DNA of 34,794 bases. Source: Candidatus Brocadia sp. GTDB lineage: Bacteria; Planctomycetota; Brocadiia; Brocadiales; Brocadiaceae. The stretch is from positions 1 through 34,794 of the forward strand of contig SOEU01000029.1 in assembly GCA_021646415.1 (NCBI GenBank). Direction: 5' to 3'. Numbering within the stretch: position 1 is the first letter of the stretch; each line of letters opens with the position of its first letter. Shown here in pieces: positions 338 through 23,460 of the stretch. A program made the position numbers and the translations under genes. The notes under the pieces were generated by a model. That model searched no databases. It saw only the letters and a program-made list of their open reading frames with translations, and was not told where the DNA came from.

Positions 338-1861
338 ATGCTATCCATAGGAATTAAGAAGGCAATATACACCTGCTGCCCGGATTTTTTGCATCCGGTT
401 CTCAATCGTGTGAAGGCATCTGAGATTGGCTATCGTCTGGCAAAAGGCGTTTTCTGGTCAACTGCCGGAGCAGTGATTTCAAGGGGTCTGATGCTAGCCG
501 CATCTATCCTCGTTGCCAGAATATTAGGGAAAACTGACTATGGTGAACTGGGAATAATCCAGTCAACGGTGGGCATGTTCGGTATCTTTGCCGGGTTTGG
601 GATGGGATTAACCGCCACCAAACACGTAGCAGAGTTTCGTAAGAGCGATCCTGAAAAAGCCGGAAGGATTATTGGGCTTTCCGGATTGTTTACTCTGATT
701 ACTGGTGGGCTTATGGCTGCCGGGCTGGCTCTGTGCGCCCCCTGGCTTGCCGAGCATACCCTTAATGCCCCGCACCTTGCAGGCATGCTTCGTATTGGTG
801 CTTTCATTCTTTTCATCAGTGCGCTGAATGGGGCGCAGACCGGGGCATTATCTGGTTTTGAGGCATTTCGTACCATCGCCTATGTCAACCTTGTTGTTGG
901 TCTGATCTCGTTCCCTATCCTTGTAGGAGGAACGTATTATGCCGGCCTCACAGGCGCCGTTTGGGCCCTGGTTATCAATCTTGGTTTCAATTGGCTTTTA
1001 AACCATCTGGCGTTGCGAAAAGAAGCACGACGATATGGTGTTCCTTTCACCTTTAAGGAATGCAGACGTGAGTTGCCTGTTCTGTGGAGGTTCAGTCTTC
1101 CAGCAGTCCTCAGTGGTGCCATGGTTGGTCCTACAACTTGGGCTTGTAACGCACTGCTCGTTAACCAACCGGACGGATACAGTGAGATGGGGATATTTAC
1201 TGCAACCCTCGTTTTCCAAAATCTGTTAGTATTTGTCAGCGGAATGTTGAACGCTCCCTTACTGTCAATGATTTCCAATGCCGGAGTAAATATATCCGAA
1301 AAACTGGGGACTGTGAATATTCTCTCTACGTGGATACTTGGGGTAATAGTTGCTATACCATTATTGTGTTTTCCCGAAATAATACAAACGTTATTCGGCG
1401 CTAATTTTGATACCCGTAGTTTCACGATAACTTTTTCCATTGTTGTTTTTTATACGTCTGTTATGCTTTATAAGGCTGGGCTTGCGAGAGTTCTGGTGTC
1501 CAAGAACCTCCTTTGGTGGGGTCTCTTCAGTAATATTATTTGGGCGACTATCCTTATTGTTTCTGCAGCATTCTTTATGCGTTGGGGAGCGGCTGGTTTA
1601 TCAATGTCATTTGCCATTGCGTATGTGTTGAACACATTCATTCTTCTTCCACTGTACTACTCAAGAAATCTGGTACCAAAAGGAACGCTGTTTTCATTCG
1701 AATCGGTAATAATATGGAGCATTCTTGTTGTTTTAGTATACTTGAATATTGCCAATGTACCGTTGCGGTTTCGCGCTATGGCGTTTGCACCATGCCTTGT
1801 GATTTCGGGAGTTGTTTTTCGCAGACTCATAGGGATGGCTTTTGAAAGGAGGCTTAGATAA
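338..1861 (+). CDS. Oligosaccharide flippase (Wzx/polysaccharide biosynthesis family)
   Basis: This 507-residue protein is almost entirely hydrophobic, with about 12-14 predicted membrane segments. From about residue 35 the sequence resembles polysaccharide-biosynthesis flippases of the MOP superfamily (GVFWSTAGAVISRG, then ARILGKTDYGELGIIQS). Such proteins move lipid-linked repeat units across the inner membrane. A basic, non-membrane stretch of about 30 residues precedes the first segment. The stop overlaps the next start by one base (TAATG), so the two genes are probably translationally coupled. It is the first gene of a glycan cluster, which supports an export role. The substrate cannot be told from sequence. 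The start has only a weak upstream purine stretch; a later start near residue 30 is possible. Confidence 0.88.
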   Translation: MLSIGIKKAIYTCCPDFLHPVLNRVKASEIGYRLAKGVFWSTAGAVISRGLMLAASILVARILGKTDYGELGIIQSTVGMFGIFAGFGMGLTATKHVAEFRKSDPEKAGRIIGLSGLFTLITGGLMAAGLALCAPWLAEHTLNAPHLAGMLRIGAFILFISALNGAQTGALSGFEAFRTIAYVNLVVGLISFPILVGGTYYAGLTGAVWALVINLGFNWLLNHLALRKEARRYGVPFTFKECRRELPVLWRFSLPAVLSGAMVGPTTWACNALLVNQPDGYSEMGIFTATLVFQNLLVFVSGMLNAPLLSMISNAGVNISEKLGTVNILSTWILGVIVAIPLLCFPEIIQTLFGANFDTRSFTITFSIVVFYTSVMLYKAGLARVLVSKNLLWWGLFSNIIWATILIVSAAFFMRWGAAGLSMSFAIAYVLNTFILLPLYYSRNLVPKGTLFSFESVIIWSILVVLVYLNIANVPLRFRAMAFAPCLVISGVVFRRLIGMAFERRLR

Positions 1862-2871
1862 TGAATTCTGAACTGTTAGAGATCCTTTGTTGCCCGCTTT
1901 GTTATGGTGATGTTGTAGAAAATAGCAGGAGCCTGCACTGTAAATTGTGCGCCCATGAGTATCCCTTACTGGATGGAATTCCTGATATGAGGGTATATGA
2001 ATCAAAAAGTTACACAAACGAGTTCAATAAAGAACAAGCAATTTATGAATCTGTACTACACGACCAAGAAGCCGAATCCGATTATGAAAAAAACGTTATT
2101 AGAACCTTTGGCACCAAGACAAGGTTGATGGTCACGCATTGGGCTGATGAAATAACATCAGCAGTTACCCCCCCCCCCGCAATTCTCGATTATGGATGTG
2201 GGACGGGTCAAGTGAGTCGCGTCATGACTCATTATATTAAACCACTTTTTGCTTTTGATATATCCGAACAAAGTCTTCGCAAGTGCATGCGAGAGAATGG
2301 TGTTCTGGGAGTTTTGGCAAATTCTCTTTATCTTCCATTCAAGAAAAATGCATTTAAAATTGTCTGCATAAATGGTGTATTGCATCACATTGTAGATCTT
2401 GAAAGAGCGGTTCGTGAATTGGCACGAGTTACTGAGGAAACGATATATATATCAGAAGGCATCCCAAGAGGAAGACCCTCTTTTGCCAAGATAACAATCT
2501 ATCCAGGACTTAAACGGAAAACTGCGTATTTCTGCTACTTAGTGCTTTATTGGTTTTATATTTGTGTAGGTATAGGGAAAAGGTTAGGAAAGAAATTGAC
2601 AACTATACTTTTTTGTTTAAGCCAAAATCATACATCACTTCATGGTAGTAAATATGAACGACCACTAAATGTTTCAGAAGTAGAATCACTTATGATAAAA
2701 AACGGATTTAAACGGAATAGATTGCTTTACTATACAAATATTGATATTCCTGGCGATGGAGCTTTTAAGAATCTGTTAACCAAAATTCTAGTCAATGAAA
2801 TTGTAGGTACACATTTTGACCTAAGAATGGATAAGGATTTTACCAACTGCGTGGAATCCACTTTATGTTAG
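1861..2871 (+). CDS. SAM-dependent methyltransferase with N-terminal zinc ribbon
   Basis: The 336-residue protein begins with a Trm112-like zinc ribbon: Cys11-x2-Cys14 and Cys27-x2-Cys30, then the YPLLDGIPDM motif typical of the family. A class I methyltransferase domain follows, with the SAM-binding glycine motif ILDYGCGTGQVSR near residue 110, an acidic FDIS strand end, and LPFKKNAFKIVCINGVLHH. It probably methylates a glycan precursor or lipid-linked sugar, judging from its neighbours. The gene overlaps the flippase by one base. Just before the SAM motif there is an uninterrupted run of 11 C (2168-2178) encoding Thr-Pro-Pro-Pro. A change in its length would truncate the enzyme before the catalytic domain, so expression could be phase-variable. 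The C-terminal third is not recognised. Confidence 0.85.
   Translation: MNSELLEILCCPLCYGDVVENSRSLHCKLCAHEYPLLDGIPDMRVYESKSYTNEFNKEQAIYESVLHDQEAESDYEKNVIRTFGTKTRLMVTHWADEITSAVTPPPAILDYGCGTGQVSRVMTHYIKPLFAFDISEQSLRKCMRENGVLGVLANSLYLPFKKNAFKIVCINGVLHHIVDLERAVRELARVTEETIYISEGIPRGRPSFAKITIYPGLKRKTAYFCYLVLYWFYICVGIGKRLGKKLTTILFCLSQNHTSLHGSKYERPLNVSEVESLMIKNGFKRNRLLYYTNIDIPGDGAFKNLLTKILVNEIVGTHFDLRMDKDFTNCVESTLC
2168..2178 (+). repeat. Poly-C(11) tract inside the methyltransferase gene
   Basis: Eleven consecutive C residues lie within the coding frame, just upstream of the SAM-binding motif. Homopolymers this long are classical slipped-strand contingency sites. As given, the tract is in the ON (in-frame) length. 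Confidence 0.9.
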
Positions 2872-2884
2872 GACAGTCACAAAC

Positions 2885-4261
2885 ATGCTCAATGTAGTAC
2901 GAAATGTTGTACAAAAAGATCTTTGCTCTGGTTGTGGTGTTTGCGCTGGTGTATGCCCAACTGATGCTCTTTCGATGAAGATTCAGGAAAACGGAGATCT
3001 TACACCATCTGTGGATGTTGTATTGTGTAGGGACAAATGTCATATGTGTCTGGATATCTGCCCTTTTTCTCAAGGACTTTATAACCCACGCGAGAGAAAT
3101 ACAGAATTATTTAATCTTACCTCCGACACAAAGTACGATGCTGATATTGGCTGGTTTTCTGATTGCTTCGTAGGATACAGGAGAGATGAAACACTTCGCA
3201 AAAACAGCTCTTCAGGTGGCTTAGCAACATGGTGCCTAGAAGGGCTTCTCAAAAGAGGACTTGTTACATGTGTAGCGGTAACTCGAATTGCTCGAAATAA
3301 AGATAAAGGCTTTTTTGAGTTCTACGCTGCTTCATCTGTTGATGAACTACGACAATCTGCCGGAAGTATTTATCATCCGGTGGAATTGTCTGAGATTGTA
3401 AAAGAAATAACTGCTGATAGAAGTAAACGATGGGCTATCATAGGAGTTCCCTGTTTGTGCACTGCGATTCGCAATAGTGTACAATTGAAGAAAACAGTGC
3501 CTTTTGTTCTCGGCCTAGCATGTGGTATGTATCAAAATACTTATTATACAGAATTTCTGCTTTCCAAAAGCGGTGTGAATCGTACTAACATAAAAAAAAT
3601 TGAGTACCGGCGAAAATCGGATGGTGGACCGCCATCCGATTATCGGTTCCGCGGAACCGATAATCGAGGAACAGGAAAAGAGGTACCGTATCGGGGTTTG
3701 CCTTTCTACCTTGGCAAAAACGCATATTTTCGCCTGAATGCCTGTAATTCTTGTATGGACGTTTTCTCGGAGATGGCAGACGCATGCTTTATGGACGCAT
3801 GGTTGCCTGCTTATTATCAGGAACCGAAAGGTACCTCGCTGGTTGTAGTAAGAAACAGGAACTTGATTGAACTGCTCCGGGAAGGACAGATTAGGGGCGA
3901 AATATCGATTGATAAGATTTGCCCAGAGGAAGTGGTAGAAAGTCAACGGGGGCATGTCAGGCGTAAACGAGAACTGATCTATATGCGCCGTGGAATGCGC
4001 GAACCAGATGATACAGGACGAGCAAAACCCACGGCCATGGAGAAAATCATTTGGTTATTACAGAGGCACGCCCAGAATAGGAGTAAGAGGGCATGGGTAA
4101 AGTACGGACGCAAATACGGACGATTGGCATTTTGGCTTGCAATAGTTGATGTACTCTTTATGCAGAGTATTACAACTATTGTATGGAAGGCAAACCAATT
4201 GCCAGGTAGGTTGATTCGAAAATATCGAGACATTTTATCTCGGATGAAAGGCAAGGAGTGA
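2885..4261 (+). CDS. F420 hydrogenase/dehydrogenase beta-subunit-like iron-sulfur protein of a glycan cluster
   Basis: The 458-residue protein starts with a two-cluster ferredoxin domain: Cys14, 17, 20, 24 and Cys48, 52, 55, 59, each ready to bind a 4Fe-4S cluster. The rest resembles the coenzyme F420 hydrogenase/dehydrogenase beta-subunit family (KNSSSGGLATWCLEGLL, then IGVPCLCTAIRN and LACGMYQNTYYTEFLL). Members of this family often sit next to polysaccharide pyruvyl transferases in exopolysaccharide clusters of organisms without F420. There the role is presumably a redox step on a sugar or flavin, but it is not established. The gene overlaps the pyruvyl transferase downstream by 4 bases (GTGA). 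A 30-bp perfect palindrome lies inside the coding region at 3637-3666. The last 70 residues are basic and of unknown function. Confidence 0.82.
   Translation: MLNVVRNVVQKDLCSGCGVCAGVCPTDALSMKIQENGDLTPSVDVVLCRDKCHMCLDICPFSQGLYNPRERNTELFNLTSDTKYDADIGWFSDCFVGYRRDETLRKNSSSGGLATWCLEGLLKRGLVTCVAVTRIARNKDKGFFEFYAASSVDELRQSAGSIYHPVELSEIVKEITADRSKRWAIIGVPCLCTAIRNSVQLKKTVPFVLGLACGMYQNTYYTEFLLSKSGVNRTNIKKIEYRRKSDGGPPSDYRFRGTDNRGTGKEVPYRGLPFYLGKNAYFRLNACNSCMDVFSEMADACFMDAWLPAYYQEPKGTSLVVVRNRNLIELLREGQIRGEISIDKICPEEVVESQRGHVRRKRELIYMRRGMREPDDTGRAKPTAMEKIIWLLQRHAQNRSKRAWVKYGRKYGRLAFWLAIVDVLFMQSITTIVWKANQLPGRLIRKYRDILSRMKGKE
3616..3666. repeat. Two adjacent hairpins inside the F420-beta-like gene, one a 30-bp perfect palindrome
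   Basis: Bases 3637-3666 read the same on both strands (arms of 15, centre CCGCGG). Directly upstream, 3616-3624 (ATCGGATGG) pairs with 3632-3640 around a 7-base loop. The two structures share bases and are mutually exclusive. The reading frame runs straight through, encoding a polar DYRFRGTDNRG-type loop. Confidence 0.9.
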
Positions 4262-5481
4262 GCGCGAAATCACCAAGGGTACTTTTGATCGGCATCGGCG
4301 GCGTGTATAATTACGGTTGTGAGGCTATCGTACGGGGTACAGAAGCAATAATTCGGAAAGAATATCCTGAGGCTGACATCGTTTATGCCTCTAAACGTCC
4401 CTCTGATGACCAAAGAAGATTGGAGGGTTCAAAAGTGCAAATTATTCAAAGAGGGATGCTTAGTCGTTATTCTGTAAAAAACATTTGCAGGAAATTACTT
4501 TCTTTATGCGATATCAGATGGTCTCCCATGGAAGATTCTTTGAAGTTGCTTAAGAATGTAGATACCGTTTTATCAATAGGGGGAGATATTTATACACTTC
4601 ATCCTAAAGGTAATTATTCTTTGTCACTTCCAAAGTTTGGTAATGCTGCGCAGAAACGAGGAGTGCCATACGTCCTGTGGGGTGCTTCAGTAGGTCCCTT
4701 CTCAGATAATCCAAGAGCCGAAATGGTATTTGCAAGACATCTAAAAAAGCTGAGTCTAATCACTGCTCGTGAATCTGCTACTGTTGAATATTTACGGACT
4801 TTGGGGGTTCGTGATAATGTTGTTCCCTGCGCCGACCCGGCCTTTTTGATTGCATCTGAGATTAAGGCAAGTCATACACAGCAATGTAATGGCTTAACTA
4901 TTGGTATTAATCTCAGTCCCTTATCAACTCGCTATACCAAATATTCCCTGGAAGATTCCATTCAAATGCAAGCGAATACAATACAAGGCATTATAAAAAC
5001 GTTCAATGCACGCATTATATTGATTCCACATGTTGTGTGTAATTTTAACGAGAACGATGATGATCTCCGATACTTGCAGAGAGTCAAGGGAGCAATTGAG
5101 CCTGGATATCAGGATAAAATTAAGCTTTTGGACTCCGACGCGGGATTTGTTGGGGTCAAGAAAGAATTAGTCAAATGTGACTTGGTTGTAGCGGCGCGAA
5201 TGCATTGTGCGATTAATGCGCTCGCCGCCCATGTTCCTACAATTCTGGTCTCATACAGCCGCAAGGCCGTAGGTATGTGTCGATATGTGTACAATAATAG
5301 TGATTGGGTCGTTTCTTTGGATGAATTCTTACCTGATAACATCTCGTGGAAGGTAACCAGACTGATTGATCAAATAGAGAAAACACGTGGCTATTTGGCA
5401 AAGCGTATCCCAGAGATTCAGCAGGATGCATACAGACCAGTGCAAATATTGAAGGAAATGTTAGAAGGAAGGCGTGGGTAG
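4258..5481 (+). CDS. Polysaccharide pyruvyl transferase family protein
   Basis: The 407-residue protein matches the polysaccharide pyruvyl transferase family. It has an N-terminal NYGCEAIVRGTEAII motif, SIGGDIYTLHPKGNYS, the strand LWGASVGPF, and a C-terminal AARMHCAINALAAHVPTILVSY region. Family members transfer a pyruvyl group from phosphoenolpyruvate to a sugar hydroxyl as a ketal, adding negative charge to surface polysaccharides. Related proteins (for example CsaB) modify cell-wall glycans. The start is GTG at 4258, overlapping the TGA of the preceding iron-sulfur gene, so the pair is likely translated together and may act on the same glycan. The acceptor sugar is unknown. Confidence 0.87.
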   Translation: MSAKSPRVLLIGIGGVYNYGCEAIVRGTEAIIRKEYPEADIVYASKRPSDDQRRLEGSKVQIIQRGMLSRYSVKNICRKLLSLCDIRWSPMEDSLKLLKNVDTVLSIGGDIYTLHPKGNYSLSLPKFGNAAQKRGVPYVLWGASVGPFSDNPRAEMVFARHLKKLSLITARESATVEYLRTLGVRDNVVPCADPAFLIASEIKASHTQQCNGLTIGINLSPLSTRYTKYSLEDSIQMQANTIQGIIKTFNARIILIPHVVCNFNENDDDLRYLQRVKGAIEPGYQDKIKLLDSDAGFVGVKKELVKCDLVVAARMHCAINALAAHVPTILVSYSRKAVGMCRYVYNNSDWVVSLDEFLPDNISWKVTRLIDQIEKTRGYLAKRIPEIQQDAYRPVQILKEMLEGRRG

Positions 5482-5579: not shown

Positions 5580-6692
5580 ATGCTTACCGTCTTATCTATT
5601 TTTGGCACCCGTCCTGAAGCCATTAAGATGGCGCCGGTTATAAAGGAACTGGAAAAACACCCTGATAGATTTCGCTCCCTTGTTTGTGTTACTGCTCAAC
5701 ACCGGCAGATGTTGGATCAGGTGCTAGACCTGTTCGGCATTGTCCCGGATTTTGATCTAGACCTTATGCAGGAGAATCAGACGTTATCCCAATTAACTGC
5801 CAGGGTTTTAACCTCCCTGGAGTCTGTGTTGCGTGAGGTAAAACCAGACTGGATTTTAGTGCAGGGCGATACCACAACAACCATGGCTGCAAGCATGGCA
5901 GCTTTTTATCACGGGATACGTGTGGGGCATGTCGAAGCCGGCCTCAGAACAAATAATAAGCACGCCCCATTCCCTGAAGAAATTAATCGCCGCGTTACTT
6001 CGGTAATTGCCGATCTGCACTTTGCGCCAACAAACAGGGCACGGCAGGCGTTATTGTCAGAAGGTATTCCGCAAAATAAAATCTGTGTTACCGGTAACAC
6101 CGTCATTGATGCCCTATTGTGGGTAAGGCAGGAAGTGAGTAAAAATCTACCTCATATCCCATCTGATTTAAAAAATGCCCTCAATGGGAAAAAGATGATC
6201 CTTGTTACCGGGCACAGGAGGGAAAGCTTTGGCAAGGCTTTTGAGCAGATATGCCTCGCCATTCGCGATTTGGCTTCCCTTCATCCCGATGTTTGCATTG
6301 TGTACCCCGTTCATTTAAATCCTAACGTAAAAGAGCCTGTACACAGGATTTTAGGAAACGTGGATCGGATACATTTAATAGAACCCTTGCCCTATGCTTC
6401 TTTTGTTTGGCTAATGGATCATGCATATGCAATCCTGACCGACTCTGGTGGCATTCAGGAAGAAGCCCCATCTTTGGGTAAGCCGGTTTTCGTAATGCGG
6501 GAAGTGACAGAAAGGCCAGAAGGCATTTATGCCGGATGTGTTGCTTTAGTAGGAACGGATAAAGACAAAATCGTTGCAAGTGTCAGTACCCTTTTAAGGA
6601 ACGAAGAAATGTACAAAGCAATGTCAGAGGCGAAAAATCCTTATGGTGACGGAAAAGCAGCGGCACGCATTGTGGAGGCGCTGTTTTCATGA
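5580..6692 (+). CDS. wecB: UDP-N-acetylglucosamine 2-epimerase (non-hydrolysing)
   Basis: This 370-residue protein is a full-length non-hydrolysing UDP-GlcNAc 2-epimerase. It interconverts UDP-GlcNAc and UDP-ManNAc in the cytoplasm, feeding N-acetylmannosamine into surface polysaccharides. Family motifs are all present: [13 protein letters not shown] (residues 9-21), QGDTTT with Asp97, HVEAGLR with Glu119, PFPEEINRR with Glu133, [10 protein letters not shown] with His213, and the nucleotide-binding [15 protein letters not shown] loop (288-302). These correspond to the catalytic residues known in the Escherichia coli enzyme. The ATG at 5580 gives the canonical N-terminus, although its ribosome-binding site is weak. 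The gene starts a new run of sugar genes after a 98-bp gap. Confidence 0.95.
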
Positions 6693-6836: not shown

Positions 6837-7241
6837 ATGAAGATTTACTATAATCAGAAGCTAAAATTCCTCTCAAGAGAACTCAGAAAAAAAAGTACTT
6901 TATCAGAGGTCTTGCTTTGGAATAAATTGAAAGCACGAAAGATAAAAGGATATCAATTCATGCGGCAAAAGCCAATCGGTAAGTATATCGTAGATTTCTA
7001 CTGCAGTAAGTTGAAATTGGTAATTGAAATTGATGGTATCAGTCATAACGACAAATCTGAGAAAGATCGGGCAAGGCAGAAGCAATTAGAGTCGTTGGGG
7101 CTGTCTCTGTTACGGTTTTATGAATGGGATGTAAAAAAAGATATGAATGCTGTAGTGCAGGTAATCGAATCCTGGATTGAAGAATTTGAGAAAAAACACA
7201 ACCCCCTGAATCCCCCTTTGGGTAAGGGGGACTTAAAATGA
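6837..7241 (+). CDS. DUF559 domain protein (restriction-endonuclease-like fold)
   Basis: The 134-residue protein matches the DUF559 family, which has a Vsr/PD-(D/E)xK nuclease-like fold. Visible motifs are ARKIKGYQFMRQKPIGKYIVDFYC, the acidic strand KLVIEIDGISH (likely catalytic Asp/Glu) and LGLSLLRFYEWDVKKD. No biochemical function is established for most members, so a nuclease role is inference. The gene sits alone among glycan genes and lies between inverted copies of one palindromic element. The right copy encodes the last 13-14 residues (HNPLNPPLGKGDLK) and the stop codon, which overlaps the next gene's ATG (ATGA). This suggests the gene arrived as a repeat-bounded cassette. Confidence 0.8.
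   Translation: MKIYYNQKLKFLSRELRKKSTLSEVLLWNKLKARKIKGYQFMRQKPIGKYIVDFYCSKLKLVIEIDGISHNDKSEKDRARQKQLESLGLSLLRFYEWDVKKDMNAVVQVIESWIEEFEKKHNPLNPPLGKGDLK
7197..7237 (+). repeat. GC-rich palindromic repeat, right (inverted) copy, supplies the 3' end of the DUF559 gene
   Basis: TCCCCCTT (7211-7218) pairs with AAGGGGGA (7224-7231) around TGGGT. It is preceded by ACAACCCCCTGAA, the inverted counterpart of the left copy's GTAGGGGGTTGT. It is in-frame with the DUF559 gene and ends a few bases before the next start codon. Confidence 0.8.
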
Positions 7242-14610: not shown

Positions 14611-14628
14611 GTTGTGAGGATTGCTAAT

Positions 14629-15363
14629 ATGCATATTAACGAGGTGGATATTGTAAATAAATATCATCACTTAGTGTATATTGACAAAGACAATGTTCAA
14701 GCCAATCCAATAGTTTGGATCGAAGAAGAATTGATAAAGTACAAAGGTCAAAAAGTTCTTGATTTTGGTTGTGGTGACGGACGGCATCGGGAAATGATAA
14801 AAAAAGCCGATGGTAATTGGGTAGGGGTTGATTTGTTAAGTTCACCAGAAGTTGATAAAATGAAAGATAATTCTGGCCTTAGAGTAGCTTATGATGGAAA
14901 CCGACTTCCTTTTAAAGACAAAAGCTTTGACATAATTTTTAGTTGCCAGGCATTGGAGCATGTTTATGATTTACAAACTGTTTTCAGAGAATTAGCGAGG
15001 GTCTGTAAAATAGGTGGAAAATTTATTGGCAGTACGTCTCACTTAGAGCCTTATCACAGTAATTCGTTTAGAAGTATAACACCGTACGGTCTTGAGAGAA
15101 TTTTGGAAGAAACGGGTTTTAAGTTGGAAGGAATACGAGCTGGAATCGATTGCTTTTCTCTTATTTGTACTCGCATCTTTCCATATGTATTGCCAAACTG
15201 TTTGATGAATATATTGACTAGAATAATATGGTCTGAACGCGGTTCACCATTAAATCGTGTAATTAATTTGTGTGGAAGATTAAAAAGATTTGATCCAAAA
15301 ACAGTTGAATGTATAAAGCTTTTATTTAGTGGACATATTGTTTTTAAAGCTGTACGAAGATAG
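14629..15363 (+). CDS. Class I SAM-dependent methyltransferase
   Basis: The enzyme has the SAM motif VLDFGCGDGRHREM near residue 45, an acidic VGVDL strand end, and LPFKDKSFDIIFSCQALEHVYDL, followed by FRELARVCKIGGKFIGSTSHLEPYH. I chose ATG 14629 because GAGGA (14616-14620) lies 8 bases upstream. A GTG at 14614, five codons earlier, is also open but has no good ribosome-binding site. It is 244 residues from ATG 14629. It probably methylates a sugar or lipid carrier of the glycan pathway. The C-terminal 80 residues are basic and unrecognised. It is not close in sequence to the zinc-ribbon methyltransferase at the cluster start. Confidence 0.82.
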   Translation: MHINEVDIVNKYHHLVYIDKDNVQANPIVWIEEELIKYKGQKVLDFGCGDGRHREMIKKADGNWVGVDLLSSPEVDKMKDNSGLRVAYDGNRLPFKDKSFDIIFSCQALEHVYDLQTVFRELARVCKIGGKFIGSTSHLEPYHSNSFRSITPYGLERILEETGFKLEGIRAGIDCFSLICTRIFPYVLPNCLMNILTRIIWSERGSPLNRVINLCGRLKRFDPKTVECIKLLFSGHIVFKAVRR

Positions 15364-16580: not shown

Positions 16581-17598
16581 TCAACAGTACCCCATCTTCC
16601 AGTGATAAAACAACTCTGGGTAAGCTTGTCTTATCGAATTGAGTTTCACCACTGATTTCCGGTAACCAATCTTGTGCTTTTTACTGAGCCACTTGATTAG
16701 TCTCCTGTCTATCATCATCAATGTGTTTCTTAGGCTTCTTATGCTGTATTTACCATAATAAGCTATCCATCCTCGAAGTTTGGCTTTGAGTAGTTTAGCA
16801 ATATCTGATATTTCTACCTGCGTGTTACCCCACAGTTTTACCTCTCGAATCACTTCACGGATTCTCTTTTGGTTGGATCGGCTTATCTCGGCTGCAAATG
16901 CTGTGAAACTCTTGCCATCTCTGTTGCTCTTTCTTGCTCTCGGCTGATAGCTGAATCCAAGAAATTCAAACTTGACCACTTCATGCCCTCCTTTACGTCT
17001 ATAGTCCCTACAGTAAGCAATCCGTGTCTTTTCCTCTTTGATTTGCAGCTTTACTTCTGCCAGCCTCCGTTTTATCGCTTCCAGCACTTTTTCTGCCTCT
17101 GTTTTGCTCGTACAGTGTACCACTACGTCGTCTGCGTATCTCACAAAGCTCGCCTGTGGGTAGTGTTTGGATAGCCACACATCAAGCGTGAAGTGCAAAT
17201 AGAGATTTGCAAGTAAAGGACTAATTACTCCTCCTTGTGGCGTCCCTTTTCCTGCTTTTTGTTGCAGTGTGCCATCTTGCTTTTGCACTGGCATCCCCAG
17301 CCATCTCTCTACATACATCTTCACCCATTTCTCTTCCATGACATGCTCCACTGCTTTTATCATCAGCACATGGTCTATTTCATCAAAGAACTTGCTTATA
17401 TCCATATCTATCACCCAGTCCTGCCTGTAGCAGTTCTGTCTGACTTGTTCTATGGCCTGATGTGCGCTCTTCAATGGCCTATACCCATAAGAATTCTCAT
17501 GGAAAAGTCGGTCTATCCTCTTTTCCATGTAGTCCTTCACTACTTGCTGCGCTATCCTGTCTCGTAGTGTCGGTATCCCTAATTTACGCAAAAGGTTG
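16581..17598 (-). pseudogene. ltrA: Group II intron reverse transcriptase/maturase, 5'-truncated
   Basis: The 336-residue remnant starts at RKLGIPTLRDRIAQQVV, which normally lies about 80-100 residues into LtrA-type maturases, so the RT0/RT1 region is missing. What remains is good: SYGYRPLKSAHQAI, DMDISKFFDEIDH, GTPQGGVISPLLANLYLH and the catalytic FVRYADD box. The maturase-specific domain (LRGWIAYYGKY) is present, and there is no HNH endonuclease domain. The open frame starts only at a TTG (17591). Upstream, homology stops near 17598 against a GGGGTCAAATCTTTA sequence. The intron's 5' half, including domains I-IV, is absent, so it cannot self-splice or move. Loss of the 5' end fits incomplete reverse transcription on insertion, or a later deletion. 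Confidence 0.85.
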
Positions 17599-19860: not shown

Positions 19861-20029
19861 ATATAGAAAGTGTTTTCCTTATCCTCCCGATTAATGAAAA
19901 CAGTTGAAAATATACTTAGTTACCTTGTCACAACAGAATTAAAAGGAGACAAATCACAGAAGAATACGGATGGTACAAATGCACACTCAACAGATAAATG
20001 TTCCAAGGGAAAGCAAAAGGACATACATT

Positions 20030-21859
20030 ATGTTTATTGTGGCGAGGTTTGTCCTTCTCCTCTTTGTTGCGTTTTTATCAACGACAGCGCTTGCTTACGC
20101 CAAAGATAACGAAACTGTTGCAGCGCCACAAGAATATTTTAGCGACTGTAACATAACCGTTGTTTCCACCCTAGCGGGAAATACCATACAACTTGCCAGA
20201 CAGCGGGATGTTTTACTCTTCGAGGGTTTTGATGCATCTGTTAAACCTGAAAGAGGCCCATCAAGGAATGCTTCTCAGAAGATTTCAGACTGGAGATATA
20301 TCCCTAAAGATGGCTGGGGGTTTGAAAATTTCAGAAACGCACTTACTCCTTTTGTTTTAAGGGAAAAGGATGCGCAGAATACCTGCCTGATTATTCGCGG
20401 TAAAGAAGGCGACACCGCCTTTGAGCTTGCTTCCCCAAAAATCCCTGTTGTGCCAGAGAAAGAATACACCCTGAGTTTTCGATGCAAGTTTAATAAACGT
20501 ATGGTGAGCCACTACGGACACAAAGGAAAGTATGAGACCGGTATTATCTGGTTTGACTCAAATCACAAGAAACTGAACGATATGCCCATCACCCTGCTCT
20601 GTGAAGAGGGTGATGAAAAAGACTGGTACAGAAAGGCGATTACCGTGGTTTCACCTGAAAAGGCAGCAATGGCGCTTATTCGCTTCGGTTTTGACCTTCC
20701 GAATCTTGGCCCCGAGGATTTTGTATGCCTCGATGATATTCAATTCGACTCGGCAAGTAACAGGCACGAACCCGAAGGCGAGTTTGTTTCAAGGCCGTTG
20801 TCAATCGAACCAGGCGAATTTTCTCTCACCGCAAATGCAGACATACCAGCAGGAACCTCCATTCGATTCCAGGTAAGGTTTGCCGGGGATAACGATGGTG
20901 TGCCTGGCACCTGGTCATCGTTTGTAAATTACAATCAAACAACCACCCCTCAGTCCCCTCCTTCACAAGGAGGGGATTTTGCCGTGAGCACTCAGCAGAA
21001 CGACAAAAGGGATATGAAATCAAGGCTTTCCAGTTCACTACCTTCACAAGGGAAAGGGGAAGGATTGTTGATTTCCTCCTTTGCGAGGGAAAGAGACAGT
21101 GTTATTAATTACCCCCCTTTCGTTCCCCCCTTCGTAAGGGGGGACACAGGGGGGTGTAAAATAAACTTTCCGGAAAAAGAAGTTTTTGCACAGAAAGCCT
21201 ATAGATGGCTGCAATACCGGGCTATCCTTCATACAACCAAACCCGAAACAACTCCTGCGCTCCATAGTGTGACAATTAATAACTCTGGTCGCGTCGCTAT
21301 TACAGATACTGGATGGACCGGTCACGATACGACACCGCCTGAAATTATTTGGCGAAGCCCGACAAGAACTGAGAATGCAGATATCCCGATCTCGTTCCGC
21401 CTTTGTGACAATCCTGGCGGGCTTGGCGTCAAGAGTGTAGAGGCGTATCTTGATGGAGAGAAAGTGGAATTATTACAGGATAAATCCCATGGGAACGAAT
21501 ATACTCTCAAGACCAATGGCCCACTCAAGCCCATCGACCGCAGCAGAAGTCTTTCAGCATGGCGCACTGAGAATTACCAGGATGCACTAGCGGTGGAACA
21601 TACGCCAGAAGTGATTACGGTGAGGAGCAAGAGTAAGGATGATACTTACGTGGATACTGCCTTTAAATTACCGTCACCACAGATTCCTGTTCGAGAAAAT
21701 TCGAAGTATGTGCTTACCTTTTTTGTGCAGCATACTATGGAACTCACACAATTACAACATTGGGGAGAGCTTTCAAGCGGTATACGCTGGAAGGATTTTA
21801 GGGGGAATGATGTAGGCGCTCCATACAGGATGAGTTTTGGAACCCGTGATATAAACTAG
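20030..21859 (+). CDS. N-terminal part of a broken secreted carbohydrate-binding/glycosidase-like protein
   Basis: I chose ATG 20030 because AAAAGGA lies 8 bases upstream and the frame then begins with a clear signal peptide (MFIVARFVLLLFVAFLSTTALAYA). The frame is also open from 19970, but that start lacks both. The 609-residue part holds a jellyroll-like binding domain (about 65-240), a beta-sandwich (TSIRFQVRFAGDNDG), an Ig-like segment (TTPPEIIWRSPTRTE), and most of a second jellyroll-like domain. It ends at an in-frame TAG (21857-21859). Similarity continues in the same frame, and the parallel position in the first jellyroll is Trp, so TGG probably mutated to TAG. About 75 residues (20939-21165) come from palindromic repeats inserted in frame. 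As read, the product lacks its catalytic domain. Confidence 0.7.
   Translation: MFIVARFVLLLFVAFLSTTALAYAKDNETVAAPQEYFSDCNITVVSTLAGNTIQLARQRDVLLFEGFDASVKPERGPSRNASQKISDWRYIPKDGWGFENFRNALTPFVLREKDAQNTCLIIRGKEGDTAFELASPKIPVVPEKEYTLSFRCKFNKRMVSHYGHKGKYETGIIWFDSNHKKLNDMPITLLCEEGDEKDWYRKAITVVSPEKAAMALIRFGFDLPNLGPEDFVCLDDIQFDSASNRHEPEGEFVSRPLSIEPGEFSLTANADIPAGTSIRFQVRFAGDNDGVPGTWSSFVNYNQTTTPQSPPSQGGDFAVSTQQNDKRDMKSRLSSSLPSQGKGEGLLISSFARERDSVINYPPFVPPFVRGDTGGCKINFPEKEVFAQKAYRWLQYRAILHTTKPETTPALHSVTINNSGRVAITDTGWTGHDTTPPEIIWRSPTRTENADIPISFRLCDNPGGLGVKSVEAYLDGEKVELLQDKSHGNEYTLKTNGPLKPIDRSRSLSAWRTENYQDALAVEHTPEVITVRSKSKDDTYVDTAFKLPSPQIPVRENSKYVLTFFVQHTMELTQLQHWGELSSGIRWKDFRGNDVGAPYRMSFGTRDIN
20939..21165 (+). 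repeat. Palindromic repeat cluster inserted in frame in the glycosidase-like gene
   Basis: Several CCCCTCCTTCACAAGGAGGGG-type hairpins form a block of about 225 bp that keeps the reading frame open. It encodes a low-complexity peptide (TTTPQSPPSQGGDFAVS... and PPFVPPFVRGDTGGCK) between two conserved beta-strand regions. The first 55 bases resemble the second insertion at 22138. The behaviour recalls Rickettsia palindromic elements, which also insert within genes. Confidence 0.8.
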
Positions 21860-22366: not shown

Positions 22367-23460
22367 GACTGCGTGACGATGGGATGACGCTCATTGATAA
22401 TAAGCCATTTTTCCCTATCGGCATCTATGCCGTACAGAAGAGCAAGGTAAATGATTACAATTTCAATAACGCTTTCAAGGAACTTAAAGAAGCGGGTTTT
22501 AATACTGCCCACACCTATATGAAAGAACGGAATCATGATTTTCGTGAATTTTACTCCACAGCAGCACAGTTTGGAATAAAGGTTATGGTCATGGCATCGA
22601 CCGGACATAACAGTGCTGATATTGATACCATTGTCCGTGATGTAGCATCTGAAGTAAATCAACCGGCGTTGCTCTCGTGGTATCTGGCCGATGACACCGC
22701 AAGCCATATCGGATCAAGCGACCTTAAACGCGTGCATGAGGCAGTGAAGGACATTGATCCGTTTCACCTGACCGGTCAGGCAGATTGGGTTGGCAATGAA
22801 AACAGGTATAAAGGATATGGAAAGGCAACGGATATCTTTTTGCCTGAGCTGTATCCCGTTGGCAAAAAAGGAAGAGGTGGCGTTCCGGAAGTGATACGTG
22901 ATATGAATACTGTAAAGGAGGAGTTAAGAAAAGCAGGACAGAGCAGAGGGGTATGGGCGATTGTTCAGGCGTTTAAAGGATGGGGATGGGAACGCTACCC
23001 GACGAACGAGGAACTGCGCGCCATGACGTATCTGTCCATTATTCACGGCGCTACCGGTATTACCTATTATACCTATGGAGGCTGGGGGAACAACTTTGGC
23101 GCTCCCTATGACAAAGGTGTGTGGAATAATCTGAAAAAGGTTGTGGGAGAACTTGCATCCCTGCACGACGTGCTGGCAGAAAGGAATACAACGGAAATCT
23201 GTGCTTTCCAGATAGGCAGAGGAGCAACGAAAGACGACCTGGTCTATCCGGCAATAAATACCTTGTTCAAGGTTCATCAGGAGAAACAGTATCTGTTTGC
23301 TGTCAATTCTGCAAGGGAAAAGACCGTCGGTCGGTTTCAACCTCCAGGAAAGAGTATTCCGGAAATTACTGTCTTGTTTGAAGGTCGATCATTGCCGGTG
23401 AAAGACGGGGTGTTTGTGGATGATTTTAAGCCGTATGAGGTGCATGTGTATCAATGGTAG
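22351..23460 (+). CDS. C-terminal glycoside-hydrolase-like part of the broken gene
   Basis: The frame resumes at 22351 with RANTIRLRDDGMTLIDNKPFFPIGIYAV; the first ATG is 22384, giving 358 residues. The sequence looks like a TIM-barrel glycosidase: FPIGIYAVQ start, NAFKELKEAGFNTAHTY, IKVMVMAS, LLSWYLADDTA, FLPELYPVG, GVWAIVQAF, and GATGITYYTYGG, ending with a small beta domain. Such barrels follow carbohydrate-binding domains in secreted glycan-active enzymes. The specificity is unknown. No ribosome-binding site or signal peptide precedes the ATG, so this is most likely the stranded catalytic end of the gene that starts at 20030. Confidence 0.7.
   Translation, partial: RANTIRLRDDGMTLIDNKPFFPIGIYAVQKSKVNDYNFNNAFKELKEAGFNTAHTYMKERNHDFREFYSTAAQFGIKVMVMASTGHNSADIDTIVRDVASEVNQPALLSWYLADDTASHIGSSDLKRVHEAVKDIDPFHLTGQADWVGNENRYKGYGKATDIFLPELYPVGKKGRGGVPEVIRDMNTVKEELRKAGQSRGVWAIVQAFKGWGWERYPTNEELRAMTYLSIIHGATGITYYTYGGWGNNFGAPYDKGVWNNLKKVVGELASLHDVLAERNTTEICAFQIGRGATKDDLVYPAINTLFKVHQEKQYLFAVNSAREKTVGRFQPPGKSIPEITVLFEGRSLPVKDGVFVDDFKPYEVHVYQW

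Follow-up and report, generated by a model that had tools for sequence, protein, structure and literature searches.

An eleven-cytosine tract in a surface-glycan methyltransferase gene of Candidatus Brocadia is probably an incidental homopolymer

Overview

A run of eleven cytosines (C11) that lies in frame in a methyltransferase gene of Candidatus Brocadia sp. is probably a chance homopolymer in an accessory glycan gene, that is, a mutable site for which an evolved switch is not indicated. We base this reading on comparable in-frame proline and glycine tracts (PPP/GGG) in conserved enzymes of relatives and on a C9 run in the PNPase gene of the same genome, as well as on the prolines being unshared by homologs and the gene being without an ortholog in congeners. 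Counting against it are the length of the tract, which is the longest C/G run of its genome, and its placement in a surface-glycan modification gene.

If the tract were a true switch, homopolymer phase variation would be extended to an environmental lineage from which our open-access literature searches retrieved no report of it, and mixed surface states would occur within the biofilm of a free-living planctomycete-type bacterium. Since like tracts occur in essential genes of this genus, the length of a tract is by itself a poor guide to such loci, and cut-offs made for Campylobacter would over-call here. The window analysed comprises the whole 34,794 nucleotides of contig SOEU01000029.1 (assembly GCA_021646415.1), read on the forward strand.

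The tract, its gene and the glycan cluster

The sequence-only reading had placed the poly-C run in frame directly before the SAM-binding motif, and this was exact in position, frame and motif (Table 1). The codons across the tract are ACC CCC CCC CCC GCA (T103-P104-P105-P106-A107), so that C11 consists of the last two bases of the threonine codon and the whole of the three proline codons, and SAM motif I (ILDYGCGTG) begins at residue 108, base 2182, directly after this TPPPA stretch. With 11 C, a length taken from one assembly of 42 contigs, the frame is open through the tract and the gene is intact. The proposal that slippage by one base would turn the enzyme off agrees with the translation of slipped sequences, in which both alternative frames end about 10-20 codons past the tract: loss of one C is predicted to give a product of 117 aa and gain of one C a product of 126 aa, both lacking the SAM/methyltransferase domain and keeping the Trm112-like domain, which is encoded upstream of the tract. 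A length change of three C preserves the frame, and only tract lengths of 2 mod 3 (C8, C11, C14) give the full-length protein.

Both domains score above their curated Pfam cut-offs (Methyltransf_11, 58.5 bits against 21.2; Trm112p, 27.1 bits against 22), and the prolines of the tract fall between them in a non-conserved linker. This placement is taken from the alignment and the Pfam boundaries; a single-protein structure model was uninformative (mean pLDDT 31).

The surface-glycan setting proposed earlier was likewise recovered, with a flippase, an FrhB-like protein, a pyruvyl transferase, a UDP-GlcNAc 2-epimerase, glycosyltransferases and a Wzy-like ligase in the cluster, and all glycan genes inspected in the window have open frames. 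Judging solely by this neighbourhood, the substrate of the methyltransferase would be a surface glycan. The same cluster holds a second Methyltransf_11 gene (14614-15363), which is free of C/G runs of 8 or more, and a DUF559 (endonuclease-like) gene sits between glycan genes at 6837-7241. Directly after the cluster, on the minus strand, follows a group II intron reverse transcriptase/maturase (RVT_1 and GIIM, 16581-17591), and two further ORFs (19970-21859, 629 aa; 22384-23460, 358 aa) had no Pfam match at 1e-6.

Table 1. Features of the C11 locus and its neighbours, in window coordinates.
Feature	Position	Strand	Basis
Polysaccharide flippase-like protein (Polysacc_synt)	338..1861	+	Pfam
Trm112-like zinc ribbon and class I SAM methyltransferase, 336 aa	1861..2871	+	ORF, Pfam
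Trm112-like N-terminal domain, residues 4-39	1870..1977	+	Pfam
C11 homopolymer, ACC-CCC-CCC-CCC	2168..2178	+	Sequence read directly
SAM motif I region ILDYGCGTG, start of Methyltransf_11 domain (residues 109-192)	2182..2208	+	Pfam, alignment
FrhB/FdhB-like 4Fe-4S protein, next gene after the methyltransferase	2885..4261	+	Pfam
Polysaccharide pyruvyl transferase-like protein	4258..5481	+	Pfam
UDP-N-acetylglucosamine 2-epimerase	5580..6692	+	Pfam

Homologs and a possible origin of the tract

No ortholog of the methyltransferase was found among 98 relatives from the genus and family (comparison genomes were one per species), where the best matches were partial with 24-42% identity, and a sample of 392 genomes from the phylum gave nothing better. 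A pattern scan of the contigs of 85,000 genomes revealed no related locus, a tblastn search against plasmids gave no match, and a scan of genome contigs of the same type found no locus related to the next gene, encoding the FrhB/FdhB-like protein. In the congeneric genomes searched, the pyruvyl transferase, two genes downstream, was without a match. As neither it nor the methyltransferase has a congeneric ortholog, the cluster is lineage-specific, at least in part. When nine homologs were aligned, the segment before motif I was variable and gapped, and PPP was present in this protein only.

These features suggest how an incidental tract could have arisen. Thr-Pro-Pro-Pro would have come to be written in CCC codons within a variable, indel-tolerant linker that leads from the zinc ribbon to the first methyltransferase strand, in a lineage-specific and probably horizontally acquired gene that is presumably under weak constraint. 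Like codons could have drifted neutrally into a tract, a possible origin discussed for other tracts (e.g. three Gly codons becoming nine G; PMC6321876), and growth may have proceeded by slippage in frame-keeping steps of three. The four proline codons are used about equally in this DNA (CCC in 81 of 328), and runs of CCC can therefore form easily. Slippage by one base, if it takes place in vivo, would yield truncated null alleles as a passive mutational liability, and some such alleles of the methyltransferase may be present in the population.

Long C/G runs in the genome and its relatives

By k-mer counts, C/G runs that reach 7, 8, 9, 10 and 11 bases number 192, 33, 3, 1 and 1, respectively, in the 3.81-Mb genome, which makes C11 the longest run and the sole one of 10 or more. 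A first-order Markov model with parameters taken from the window sequence predicts 328, 84, 22, 5.5 and 1.4 runs per genome for the same classes, so that long runs, as counted by pattern searches, are rarer than modelled (33 versus 84 for at least 8; 3 versus 22 for at least 9). Extrapolation of the observed decay, which is steeper than that of the model, lowers the expected number of runs of 11 or more to 0.02-0.17. C11 is thus a real outlier, though a modest one, and mildly to moderately unexpected. The shortage of long C/G runs agrees with the general underrepresentation of poly-C and poly-G tracts in prokaryotic genes (PMC2831843), and in a genome depleted in such runs the survival of an 11-mer asks for either weak constraint or selection.

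Within the same genome, a C9 run in the PNPase gene (contig C23) encodes PPP, and a further C9 tract lies on contig C3. Runs of 8 were found in MnmE-like, MnmA-like, RnfC-like, riboflavin-synthase-like and L15-like frames; a glycosyltransferase frame has one too, right where the open frame begins. For each run of 8, the longest open frame across it was assigned by Pfam; a few of the runs lie close to an end of their frame, and the gene proper may then begin downstream of the run or stop ahead of it. In nine congeneric genomes we counted 43 C/G runs of 10 bases or more, many of them within C-rich palindromic interspersed repeats. In-frame PPP or GGG tracts of 10-11 bases occur there inside conserved enzymes: MoaA (LPPPMIG), MurG (AGGGTGGH, its glycine-rich motif), AspRS (LGGGSIRIH), RecO, a class-III aminotransferase (IITPPPEYF) and a PDDEXK nuclease. 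FliK has an in-frame tract of this kind as well, and so has PheS of another genus in the family. No bias of runs towards surface genes was visible, either among runs of at least 8 in the own genome, which are distributed across metabolic and translation genes, or among those of at least 10 in relatives, many being in housekeeping genes or repeats.

The repeat of the congeneric genomes has a C-rich palindromic core (ATAATCCCCCCGTTTACGGGGGGATTAT) with flanks GCCTTCGGC and TAATTGAAATTCCT-like ends, and single genomes yielded as many as 19 strand-matches, a figure in which most palindromic copies count twice, once for either strand. Its strict core was present in 6 of 11 genomes, the window's genome not among them, and congeneric repeat loci include L035 (around 1441-1560), L063, L071, L073, L075, L080, L081, L084 and L086. 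The own genome contains at least one degenerate copy (L123). We rejected the possibility that C11 is part of this repeat, as the window holds no copy and the own genome none at up to 3 mismatches. In one congener, a run of 28 G lies two bases away from the end of a contig (L037:1501-1528), which is probably a sequencing or assembly artefact.

Alternative explanations

According to the sequence-only reading, slippage at C11 would turn the methyltransferase off and could make glycan methylation heterogeneous within a biofilm or granule. As a contingency locus, the tract would serve by slipped-strand mispairing as a selected, reversible on/off switch of surface-glycan methylation, e.g. against phage. 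We consider this unlikely. For Campylobacter, in which expression is switched by tracts of eight or more, the cut-off is at least 7 G/C; the tract does exceed it, and its 11 C surpass the length of about 7-8 at which tracts become hypermutable (PMC6321876); a one-unit slip is predicted to switch expression, giving the short products without SAM site described above, the gene lies within a surface-glycan cluster, and no other C/G tract of the genome reaches 10. Yet the tract stands by itself and not as part of a phasome, the Campylobacter cut-off would flag 192 runs in this genome, and long tracts, instead of being concentrated in surface or modification genes, are spread over housekeeping genes of the own genome and essential genes of sister species (PNPase, MnmE-like, MnmA-like, L15-like, MoaA, MurG, AspRS, RecO, PheS) and over intergenic repeats. 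The own genome moreover encodes MutS (880-aa open frame) and MutL, which also led us to reject loss of mismatch repair as the cause of tract growth. Many phase-variable species also have MutS and MutL; their presence is compatible with phase variation, but it removes one cause of tract instability. In mismatch-repair-deficient Vibrio mutants, indel rates climb with homopolymer length (PMC5854121), and C11 should accordingly mutate more readily than the sequence around it. The positive support for a contingency locus is thus tract length and gene class alone, and mutability differs from selected switching; with a single tract, similar tracts in housekeeping genes and mismatch repair genes present, the claim of a phase-variation locus was not upheld. 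In one open-access full-text library, no paper combined slipped strand mispairing with anammox, and the few that mention phase variation alongside anammox, or together with homopolymers and Planctomycetes, seemed incidental by title and occurrence counts.

A comparably small chance is given to an error of assembly or sequencing, with a real tract of another length, e.g. 8-10 C. Some read types err most often in homopolymers, the length comes from the single 42-contig assembly, and the 28-G run of the congener looks like such an artefact; against this, a tract of exactly 11 C leaves the frame open, which only lengths of 2 mod 3 do, and the inspected glycan genes of the window have open frames as well. 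It is very improbable that the prolines or the poly-C act in translation, as an EF-P-dependent pause between the domains or as a ribosomal frameshift site. EF-P-dependent stalling is classically associated with PPP, the genome encodes EF-P and the motif is placed between the two domains, but it is unconserved in homologs, and the alternative frames close within about 10-20 codons and encode no second product. Programmed frameshifting or slippage with a second product was rejected for that reason, both alternative frames closing within about 20 codons.

Comparison with known systems

The locus resembles the poly-G/C contingency loci that PhasomeIt catalogues in Campylobacter, in genes for capsule and LOS (PMC6321876), in having a C/G run of at least 8 in a surface-glycan gene, where a one-base slip truncates the product. 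Strains of C. jejuni have 18-39 phase-variable genes with tracts mostly 9-10 long and observed length variation (PMC6321876), whereas here a single tract is known from one assembly, in a genome with mismatch repair genes. The protein itself shares domain order and motifs with Trm112-fused class I SAM methyltransferases (Pfam Trm112p and Methyltransf_11), and differs from them in that no ortholog was found, matches are partial (24-42% identity) and the PPP stretch is unshared. The closest likeness of the tract is to chance homopolymers from like codons (PMC6321876): the CCC-CCC-CCC here resembles the tracts of PNPase in the own genome and of MoaA, MurG and AspRS in relatives, and differs from most such housekeeping tracts in being one or two bases longer and in its setting, which is a non-conserved linker and not a conserved motif.
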